This document shows positions 3,487 through 32,980 of a stretch of DNA of 41,139 bases, piece after piece. Source of the stretch: Methanomethylovorans sp. (GTDB lineage: Archaea; Halobacteriota; Methanosarcinia; Methanosarcinales; Methanosarcinaceae). Made by a program: the position numbers and the translations under genes. The notes below the pieces were generated by a model. It had not been told where the DNA came from, did not search any database, and worked only from the letters and a program-made list of their open reading frames with translations. The stretch lies in contig JACIVZ010000007.1 of the NCBI GenBank assembly GCA_014361205.1, positions 1 to 41,139 of the forward strand, in the 5' to 3' direction. Within the stretch, counting starts at the first letter, position 1. Each line of letters starts with the position of its first letter.

Positions 3487-3511
3487 TAAAAAAAGATTGG
3501 AGGTTACTCCT
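3487..3511 (-). terminator. Terminator of the membrane-anchored protein gene
   Basis: On the minus strand GGAG and CTCC (3499-3502 with 3507-3510) can pair, followed by a run of seven T (3488-3494 in minus orientation). The gene's TAA stop (3504-3506) lies in the loop. The stem is short, so the T-run is the stronger part of the signal. Confidence 0.45.
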
Positions 3512-4244
3512 TAACTTCTTTAAAACTCTTTATTTCCGGCTCATACCCTTTTTCAATGGCATCCAGCAATTCTTTCTGATCCACATACTCATATTCCCTT
3601 ACAGCCAGTCCATCATCAGTTAATGTGAATTTTCCCAATGACGCACCAATCACAAGATAGTGTTCAGGGCCAAAGTCCTTAAATCTGGTAGAAACATCCT
3701 TACTTACATACAACAAGACCTTTTCACCTTCTTTGAAAGATGGTTCCGAATCGAAGGCCATTTTCACAACTTCGTCCTCTCCTCCTTGAATGCGAACCCT
3801 AATTTCTTTCTGCTCAAGTGGGTTCTTAAGATATTGATCCACACTTATAATGACATCAGTGTACATAGCATCATATTCACCCAAATTTTCAATTGTATCA
3901 CCCCGCCTTTTTCCGTCATGAGTGTTCCATTTTGCGGGCAGAATCTCCTTTACTGTGCCAATAACAATCGATTCAGATCGCTGATTTAGCTCAGTAAAAT
4001 TGAGATATGCAAGTGATCCACTACTCGAAATCAATATTTGAGGAGAATCTACTTCTGTACTATTACCTTGTGCATCTTGTGTTAGATGATCAGAACTGAC
4101 TGGAAGGGCTGATTGTTGCAAATTTTCTTCTGGAGAGTTGTTTTGCAGATGTTGTGTTAGATTCCCAAATAAGACTATGCCGACAATTAACACTGATAGT
4201 AATCCAACACTCAATAATCCATATTTTGTTGTTCGATTAACCAT
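3504..4244 (-). CDS. Membrane-anchored extracytoplasmic protein of unknown function
   Basis: I do not recognise the family. The 246-residue protein has one N-terminal membrane segment (about residues 8-27, GLLSVGLLSVLIVGIVLF), a low-complexity Ser/Gln/Asn linker to about residue 70, and a soluble C-terminal domain rich in beta-type segments. That topology puts the domain outside the cell. There are no cysteines and no obvious catalytic motif. The start ATG 4244 is preceded by AAGGTGG. It begins 9 bases after the stop of the secreted metalloprotease, so the two are almost certainly one operon. It might be a partner, inhibitor or tether of the protease; that is inference from position only. Confidence 0.75.
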   Translation of the reverse strand: MVNRTTKYGLLSVGLLSVLIVGIVLFGNLTQHLQNNSPEENLQQSALPVSSDHLTQDAQGNSTEVDSPQILISSSGSLAYLNFTELNQRSESIVIGTVKEILPAKWNTHDGKRRGDTIENLGEYDAMYTDVIISVDQYLKNPLEQKEIRVRIQGGEDEVVKMAFDSEPSFKEGEKVLLYVSKDVSTRFKDFGPEHYLVIGASLGKFTLTDDGLAVREYEYVDQKELLDAIEKGYEPEIKSFKEVKE

Positions 4245-4253
4245 TATACCACC

Positions 4254-4808
4254 TTATGTCCCATATATTGCAATGATCCCATTTTTGTCATCTTGTTCAA
4301 GACTTCTTTTGTATACAGTACCTGAATTAGTATCTTTAAACATGGTAGCTGAAGTAATAGTTGAATGGCCCAAACCAACGCCATGTCCAAACTCATGCGT
4401 GAATACGCTTAAGACATCATATTTACCTGAAGGGCATGGGGTTGAAGTAGACCAACTCGAACTATAATCGCTGTTCAGATCAATGTACATCTTTGAAAGA
4501 CGAGTAGTGCCTGAATAAACATAACGTGTACATGATCCGAGATAGTTTACCTGCGATCCAAAAGAGTAATACCTCACTTTATTGTTAGAATTCACAGACG
4601 AATAATAATCAAAGTCTGCACCGGCATTTGTCCAAGCATTTGCAGCTGCATCAACACAACTTTTGTATGCAGTTGGGACAGAACTATCGATTGTATAGCC
4701 GACATAACCGTTACTCCAATAATATTGTGTAGTATATGCTGATGCTGGACATATTAAACACAACAGCATCAGACAAAACACAATTACTCGATTTGATATT
4801 TTTGTCAT
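4254..4808 (-). CDS. Secreted matrixin-like (M10) zinc metalloprotease
   Basis: A 184-residue exported zincin. Residues 1-24 are a signal peptide with a hydrophobic core and a likely ASA cleavage site. The metzincin motif HEFGHGVGLGH gives zinc ligands H138, H142 and H148 with catalytic E139; Met156 in SATMFKD is a plausible Met-turn. C51, C93 and C125 are the only cysteines of the mature part. The mature chain is Ser/Tyr/Asn rich, as is common for exported proteins. It is about the size of a bare matrixin catalytic domain, with no propeptide or C-terminal module. Start ATG 4808 has a strong GAGGTGA ribosome-binding site. It is first in an operon with the membrane-anchored protein. The substrate is unknown. 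Confidence 0.88.
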   Translation of the reverse strand: MTKISNRVIVFCLMLLCLICPASAYTTQYYWSNGYVGYTIDSSVPTAYKSCVDAAANAWTNAGADFDYYSSVNSNNKVRYYSFGSQVNYLGSCTRYVYSGTTRLSKMYIDLNSDYSSSWSTSTPCPSGKYDVLSVFTHEFGHGVGLGHSTITSATMFKDTNSGTVYKRSLEQDDKNGIIAIYGT

Positions 4809-4980
4809 ATATTCACCTCACTATTTTTGAGGCAAGAACACGATAGATTTAAGTTTAGTAAAACTAACTTAGTCTTGCCTCAGGGCGTTTGGGGTTCAAA
4901 TCTACTTTGCAGGTTTCGTTTGAACCCCATTCCACATAATCGGTTGTGGCGTAACTCAATTAAACTTGTATATAAATTTT
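4809..4980 (-). promoter_or_regulatory. Structured leader and TATA box of the metalloprotease operon
   Basis: Read on the minus strand, an AT-rich TATA element (AAATTTATATACAAG, about 4961-4975) is followed by three inverted repeats and then the ribosome-binding site. The repeats are CCACA/TGTGG (about 4932-4949), a perfect 10-bp GGGGTTCAAA/TTTGAACCCC (4919-4928 with 4891-4900), and a perfect 10-bp TGAGGCAAGA/TCTTGCCTCA (4873-4882 with 4828-4837). The last one encloses a further imperfect stem (AGTTAGT/ACTAAACT). GAGGTGA and ATG 4808 follow directly. The repeats are seen; a leader RNA with a regulatory role is inference. The rest of the 452-base gap (4981-5260) shows only AT-rich sequence. 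Confidence 0.45.
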
Positions 4981-5260
4981 TTATGGCCATGCTATCAAAC
5001 TGAGAACTTGTTTGCTACCATAATACATAGAAAGAAAAATTGCATAATTGTTGAATACTTTTCTAAGACGCATAGCAATATCTAGTAGACTGACTTCTGT
5101 TATGGCTATGGACTAGGATTTAGAATTCAGAGAATTGTTCTCCGAAAGAAGATCAGTAATCCATTATGCTAAAATTATCCACACGATATTGAAGAGAACA
5201 AAAAGAATAAATCATACCGTATTAAAAGAGAAAAGAGTTTTTAAGTATAACTGTATAAAC

Positions 5261-32906: not shown

Positions 32907-32980
32907 GGGCCGGTAGCTTAGCCAGGCAGAGCGACGGACTCTTAATCCGTAGGCCAGGGGTTCAACTCCCTTCCGGCTCG
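32907..32980 (+). tRNA. tRNA-Lys (anticodon CTT)
   Basis: A 74-base cloverleaf. Acceptor GGGCCGG pairs with CCGGCTC, leaving discriminator G. The D arm is GCTTAGCCAGGCAGAGC. The anticodon stem ACGGA/TCCGT holds loop CTCTTAA with anticodon CTT (reads AAG, lysine). The T arm AGGGG-TTCAACT-CCCTT is complete. No intron is present and CCA is not encoded. An upstream GTATATATT (about 32850) is a likely TATA box. A T-rich run after the gene (about 32987-33000) may stop transcription. Confidence 0.96.

Follow-up and report, generated by a model that had tools for sequence, protein, structure and literature searches.

A recurring structured leader before exported-protein genes of methanogenic archaea, with a proposed role in translational control

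Described leader RNAs and their relation to the present locus

Conserved leader RNAs that are common to many genes have, to our knowledge, rarely been described in archaea. The closest described system is that of sRNA162, sRNA171 and the MM2442 gene in Methanosarcina mazei (RF02792; PMC3510493). According to the parts of that paper available to us, the start of sRNA162 has been mapped, and the RNA overlaps the MM2442 5' UTR by 65 nt. Binding to the MM2442 leader is reported for both sRNA162 and sRNA171, in the case of sRNA162 with a gel shift and a footprint. Overexpression of sRNA162 leads to a slight drop in MM2442 mRNA, and stable 5' fragments of sRNA162, 55-65 nt in length, are present in stationary phase. 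In the same available parts, the system is presented as a single antisense pair in three Methanosarcina species only, and the sense leader is not recognised as structured, multi-copy or linked to secreted proteins. The leader of the MM2442 type is, however, a member of the family described here, since our covariance model R2 matches it opposite the sRNA. sRNA162 is antisense to its P1 hairpin and to the 5' arm of its P2 hairpin. RF02792 models the antisense strand. It does not match the window, by which we mean the whole 41,139-nt stretch of Methanomethylovorans sp. DNA that was analysed (contig JACIVZ010000007.1), and no match up to E 10 was obtained in positions 4700-5100.

Other archaeal leaders share single traits with the present one. 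The L7Ae k-turn leader is likewise a folded 5' leader that controls translation, but it acts on L7Ae's own gene as far as the accessible text of PMC6298567 goes, and no k-turn was seen by eye in our leader family. Long 5' UTRs are also found in Methanolobus psychrophilus, one of which is predicted to bury its ribosome-binding site (RBS). The portions of PMC5378194 at hand treat these as individual cold-response cases and describe no shared family. Translational riboswitches with a shared anti-Shine-Dalgarno arm are alike in that one strand pairs either with a 5' arm or with the Shine-Dalgarno (SD) sequence. Compared with these, the leader family has no known ligand and no Rfam class, and it covers a whole regulon of exported enzymes.

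The hairpin leader of a matrixin gene

The leader of the window precedes a gene for a secreted matrixin-type metalloprotease of 184 amino acids (4254-4808, minus strand). A preliminary description of this DNA had inferred an exported protease from the letters alone, and the Pfam comparison agrees: the ORF matches PF00413 (E 2.5e-12, 47.4 bits against a cut-off of 24) and has a signal peptide. It contains HEFGHGVGLGH, which we take to be the M10 zinc motif. The ATG lies at 4808-4806 and the GAGGTGA SD sequence at 4813-4819, both on the minus strand. After a gap of 9 bp follows a second ORF of a putative operon (3504-4244, minus strand; 246 amino acids), which has a hydrophobic N-terminus and no family match in Pfam. 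DNA of similar appearance lies 3' of the matrixin gene in the close relative L003 and, less clearly, in L004 (by eye). The window's own genome holds a second matrixin gene reduced to a remnant (L015 1501-1665, G000:C1:19054-19218), which consists of the N-terminal part with one internal stop. A tRNA gene at 32907-32980 on the plus strand is the sole Rfam match of the window.

The TATA element of the leader promoter is TTTATATA at 4969-4976 on the minus strand (plus-strand letters TATATAAA), identified by sequence. Transcription presumably starts at about 4945-4950, at the foot of the first hairpin, a position inferred from the archaeal TATA spacing that we assume. In relatives, TATA-like elements are found 24-27 nt or 45-57 nt 5' of P1. 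As a separate observation, long inverted repeats of 13-20 bp with locus-specific sequences lie 5' of the sense promoter in four Methanosarcina leaders (L031, L056, L239 and L264).

Three hairpins stand in tandem between the TATA element and GAGGTGA, as had been proposed. P0, at the predicted 5' end, is a 5-bp hairpin (4932-4949, minus strand; CCACA 4932-4936, TGTGG 4945-4949) and corresponds to the shortest of the three inverted repeats reported earlier. Small hairpins like P0 are seen by eye 5' of P1 in several genera, without a covariation test. P1 (4890-4929, minus strand), supported by its inverted repeat and by covariation in relatives, has perfect arms of 11 bp, TGGGGTTCAAA at 4890-4900 and TTTGAACCCCA at 4919-4929. 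The P2 core (4827-4889, minus strand) is defined by the match to the models R1 and R2, with its 5' arm at 4882-4873 and its 3' arm at 4837-4828. Its outer arms are perfect over 10 bp, TGAGGCAAGA at 4828-4837 and TCTTGCCTCA at 4873-4882. The two longer repeats had both been described as perfect and 10 bp long; the perfection holds for both, the length only for P2.

For positions 4800-4950 of the minus strand, the folding energy is -43.7 kcal/mol, compared with -26.3 ± 3.3 kcal/mol for 200 dinucleotide shuffles (z -5.2; 0/200 as low), and a wider segment (4790-4960) gives z -4.8. All folds were computed at 37 °C only. These values support the earlier view that such stems are unlikely by chance, although covariation in relatives is the stronger argument. 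In the family member of M. mazei, transcription has been mapped to start 5' of the stems, according to the available parts of PMC3510493. On the sense strand, Rfam gave no match to the leader either at the gathering score or at high E-values. It returned no riboswitch, and none had been recognised in the preliminary description. Low-score Rfam hits to miRNA and snoRNA families were at chance level and were rejected.

Distribution, covariation and genes of the leader family

The matrixin is present in 12/99 related genomes, its own included. Among 16 loci with a matrixin protein match, eight have a similar leader by eye, one being the window itself (L002). Seven of these eight served to build R1, a covariance model of P2; L011, whose leader looks similar by eye, was misaligned and hence excluded. 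No such leader was seen by eye at the matrixin loci L008 and L010, and R1 does not match the Methanoperedens locus L079. Of the 237 genomes of the class, 93 have an R1 match at a per-genome E ≤ 0.1 and 82 at E ≤ 1e-3. The stricter count is safer because chance could yield about two dozen genomes at the looser threshold. The 110 located R1 hits reduce to 108 distinct leaders, one of them without an ORF; a further 4/107 were dropped for an unusual start distance, leaving 103 usable leaders (the start in L045 was reset by hand). In these, the start codon lies about 18-36 nt after the P2 core. A hairpin like P1 (≤ -8 kcal/mol) lies 5' of P2 in 97/103, compared with 6/25 shuffled sequences.

A second model, R2, was built from 90 leaders. 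In a sample of 392 genomes from the phylum, it has matches in 77 at E ≤ 0.01 and in 71 at E ≤ 1e-3; 27 of the former and 21 of the latter lie outside the class. Thirty loci fetched from outside the class look alike, with a hairpin, a core of the GCCC-GGAGGCA type and an SD sequence. A hydrophobic N-terminus or signal peptide stands behind the leader in 24/30 of them, and 3/30 gave no start. Raw match counts per genome are inflated because the near-palindromic P2 produces echoes on the opposite strand, which account for most opposite-strand hits. After removal of the echoes, the window's own genome has one copy and its nearest relative (G005) three, and the 31 R2 matches of another genome, G168, come down to about 26 copies with five echoes removed. 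Control regions totalling 240 kb, taken from two genomes that carry leaders, contained no leader match. The window copy scores 71.1 bits with R1 (E 9e-15, the copy being included in the model) and 55.6 bits with R2. It shows the traits of the family throughout: a P2 core match, P1 directly 5' of it, complementarity between the P2 3' arm and the SD sequence, a start codon close by and a gene with a signal peptide.

Both main stems covary. For P2, the alignment comprised 90/103 leaders (90 cores, 89 distinct), in which 12/20 pairs had at least one row with both bases changed. Double-changed cells numbered 70, compared with 27.9 ± 4.4 in shuffles (0/500 as high). Two kinds of control were used, as kinship persists in the shuffles and is removed by sliding the register. 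Slid registers of P2 have 31-55% of cells paired, against 86.8% in the true register. However, a slide of +1 nearly equals the true register in double-changed cells (66 against 70). RNAalifold alone found no consensus fold for the 90-row alignment of P2, and the P2 structure was therefore set from single folds and then counted. Apical and loop positions of P2 are conserved beyond pairing, and the apical stem is gapped in 11 leaders with a short P2. For P1, all 11/11 pairs changed on both sides in 40 regions, with 58 double-changed cells against 21.7 ± 4.3 shuffled (0/500) and at most 16 in slid registers. These rows are 40/63 non-redundant P1 regions chosen for alignability, so the P1 alignment is biased towards clean P1. 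The compensatory changes proposed as a check on the stems are therefore seen for P1 and P2. Together with the recurrence before secreted-protein genes in many genomes, they support the inference of a structured, possibly cis-regulatory 5' leader.

The genes behind the leaders have export in common. A Sec-type signal was found by a crude test in 77/82 leader ORFs of at least 100 amino acids, compared with 10/161 background genes taken from two genomes, in 12 regions placed at round-number positions. This background replaced a first control made of ORFs from the same loci (56/97 positive at a cut of 2.2), a poor control because secreted genes and spurious ORFs abound at these loci. The signal-peptide genes of the control regions have no leader, and the leader hence marks only a subset of exported proteins. 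The mature parts of the proteins belong to many unrelated families. Pfam comparison of 70 leader proteins (70/79 kept) gave 9 C39-like, 6 matrixin and 4 M12-type peptidases and 1 trypsin-like protein, and most of the others remained unnamed. By eye, other families behind leaders carry motifs that we take to be GDSGGP or phospholipase C-like. Behind some leaders (L020, L024, L028, L036, L039, L048:1067, L139:2324 and L142), the signal-peptide ORF is short, truncated or frameshifted; these ORFs are decaying paralogues behind intact leaders. Truncated or frameshifted ORFs likewise follow the leader at some loci outside the class. The product of L049 7362-8387 (minus strand) starts with MIKNK like its neighbours and has no hydrophobic stretch; it seems to be a paralogue that has lost its signal peptide.

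The leader family is almost certainly real, and it has no Rfam entry of its own. The preliminary description, limited to one locus, could not show that the leader is multi-copy, that the P2 3' arm is complementary to the SD sequence, or that there is a link to sRNA162. No description of the family was found among the open-access papers searched; subscription papers and supplements were outside the scope of the search. Its parts, a structured leader and SD sequestration, are ordinary. What is undescribed in the sources searched is a recurring multi-copy family that accompanies exported hydrolases and extends over more than one class of archaea.

Control of SD access and its possible triggers

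The 3' arm of P2 (UGCCUC and flanks) has two complementary partners, the P2 5' arm and the SD sequence. Any SD sequence is partly complementary to CCUCC, and only the excess over swapped pairs was therefore counted. Over all leaders (n=97), the duplex of each arm with its own SD sequence reaches -11.02, against -9.01 ± 0.19 after swapping (0/5000 swaps). The excess is also present in swaps within Methanosarcina (0/5000, n=39), within genus g5 (5/5000, n=15) and within the single genomes G169 (0/5000, n=10) and G168 (39/5000, n=10). It is absent in g9 (618/5000, n=10), in genome G055 (1196/5000, n=8) and among the leaders outside the class (523/5000, n=26).

Constrained folds were computed for 96/103 leaders, the other 7 having no GGC in the arm window. 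When the SD sequence is kept free, both P2 arms pair with each other in 96/96. When the P2 5' arm is blocked, the 3' arm pairs with the SD sequence in 90/96, and the computed mean openness of the SD sequence falls from 0.67 to 0.19. In the window, the predicted MFE structure has the SD region UGAGGUGA (4813-4820, minus strand) paired with the 3' arm of P2. This SD-hidden fold lies 3.6 kcal/mol below the SD-free fold. For L003, the SD-free fold is predicted as favoured, so the resting state differs in prediction between these two close relatives.

We put at roughly 0.7 the probability that the leader in the window belongs to a cis-regulatory family with many copies, one that exerts translational control over secreted hydrolases in methanogenic archaea, a reading made without expression data. 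That the family works by switching access to the SD sequence, as a bistable translational switch, is probable to the same degree. Pairing of the P2 3' arm with its own 5' arm would leave the SD sequence free (ON), and pairing with the SD sequence would hide it (OFF), both states being inferred. Binding or blocking of the P2 5' arm would then turn translation off, a direction that is likewise inferred. The trigger is unidentified; candidates are an antisense RNA, or a ligand or protein that acts on the conserved apical part.

An antisense RNA would fit the SD switch and would name its trigger. On this account, P2 carries the promoter of an RNA like sRNA162. By covering P1 together with the 5' arm of P2, this RNA would leave the 3' arm free to hide the SD sequence, in cis and on sibling leaders. 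RF02792 is present in 22/30 Methanosarcina genomes, 16 of them above the cut-off. A leader lies opposite the sRNA in 23/30 fetched loci (21/24 above the cut-off), with an overlap of about 13 nt at the sRNA 5' end. No leader/sRNA overlap was found at the RF02792 loci L248, L249, L252, L254, L255 and L263, and in L256 the leader is on the same strand as the match. The other strand of the L182 leader reaches 52.6 bits with RF02792, under the cut-off of 78 bits. G168 has two RF02792 matches (214.8 and 204.7 bits) that are 5.4 kb apart, as expected of M. mazei, from which we infer a genome like that of M. mazei. The published start of sRNA162, in the part of PMC3510493 available, follows TTAAAATA at a distance of 30 nt; on the opposite strand, this sequence reads as the apical motif of P2. 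Since sRNA162 thus starts inside a P2 of Methanosarcina, its cis target is a member of the family. The binding of sRNA162 and sRNA171 to that leader, established by others, points the same way.

Behind the leader of the MM2442-like locus L235 (1250-1513, minus strand) come AAAGAGGTGG and then a TTG start for a signal peptide, MKLNSKVRKISGLFMIMLVIGMILVTPAMAC (translated by eye). MM2442 may therefore be annotated with a start too far downstream. This would explain why, in the accessible parts of PMC3510493, no RBS is found before the annotated start and sORFs are proposed.

TTAAATA, TTAAGTA, TTATATA or TTTAATA occurs on the antisense strand in 69/90 leaders, and the spacing from motif to P2 5' arm is 26-27 nt in 76/90. 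Both are kept even where, in 11 leaders with a short P2, the apical stem is gapped. However, the motif is a poor TATA box in about one-fifth of the 90, and RNA pairing partly accounts for it. Methanosarcina leaders that were not chosen by RF02792 have an upstream inverted repeat of the SL3 type (7.00 against 5.58 ± 0.23 bp), but in other genera, the window included, this stem does not exceed shuffles (5.67 against 5.69). Overexpression of the sRNA162 5' fragment gave no obvious phenotype, as far as the available text of PMC3510493 reports. An antisense pair of this kind is possible but less likely than not, and that antisense RNA is the general trigger of the family is offered only tentatively. 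In the window, a possible antisense promoter (4848-4877, plus strand) would consist of TTTAAG at 4848-4853 with a start near G4877, inferred from the family spacing and by analogy with sRNA162. Antisense transcription from about 4877 on the plus strand is a prediction from motif and spacing, without RNA data.

The same platform could serve a riboswitch. A small molecule or ion would then bind in a pocket formed by P1 and P2, and by stabilising P2 it would open the SD sequence of exoenzyme genes. The covarying stems, the apical and loop conservation beyond pairing, the shared-arm expression platform and the coherent gene set would suit such an element. The gene set, however, has no ligand theme such as transport or biosynthesis, no riboswitch class described in Rfam matches, and the apical part is missing in one subgroup. 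We regard this account, which has no binding data behind it, as doubtful. It is unlikelier still that the leader is a protein-binding site at which an RNA-binding regulator or an export factor links translation to growth or secretion. All targets are exported and their mature parts are unrelated, which speaks for it, but only a subset of exported proteins is marked, the leader being absent from control regions with 10 signal-peptide genes (crude test), and there is no candidate protein. An RNA thermometer, or passive hairpins that stabilise the mRNA without a regulating factor, could draw on the isoenergetic folds, here computed at 37 °C alone, and on the long structured 5' UTRs that are common in these methanogens (available parts of PMC5378194). 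We consider this quite improbable, because loop conservation and the fit of arm to SD sequence exceed the needs of mere stability. Duplication of promoter-leader-signal cassettes by recombination or gene duplication, with functionless hairpins, can be set aside almost entirely: tandem paralogues with identical leaders (L049) and decayed ORFs behind leaders speak for it, but the proteins are unrelated past the signal peptide, the stems covary and several classes are involved.

A bolder form of the bistable SD switch may be stated as a conjecture that we would more readily expect to fail than to hold. Each leader would be a two-strand switch, in which the P2 apex is both RNA structure and antisense TATA element. 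The antisense RNAs would pair with the P2 5' arm both on their own leader and on sibling leaders, the 3' arms would turn to the SD sequences, and exoenzyme genes would be silenced together. This would amount to an RNA-only regulon in several archaeal classes, each genome having many copies that cross-talk, and sRNA162 would be the sole known case of its antisense RNAs.

For methane-producing archaea, the leader marks a defined set of genes, those of secreted peptidases and other exported proteins. It offers the concrete hypothesis that the output of exported proteins is set at translation. The well-studied sRNA162 can be reinterpreted in this light, as its cis target would be one of about 26 similar leaders in an M. 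mazei-like genome. These hypotheses are testable in the genetically tractable Methanosarcina.
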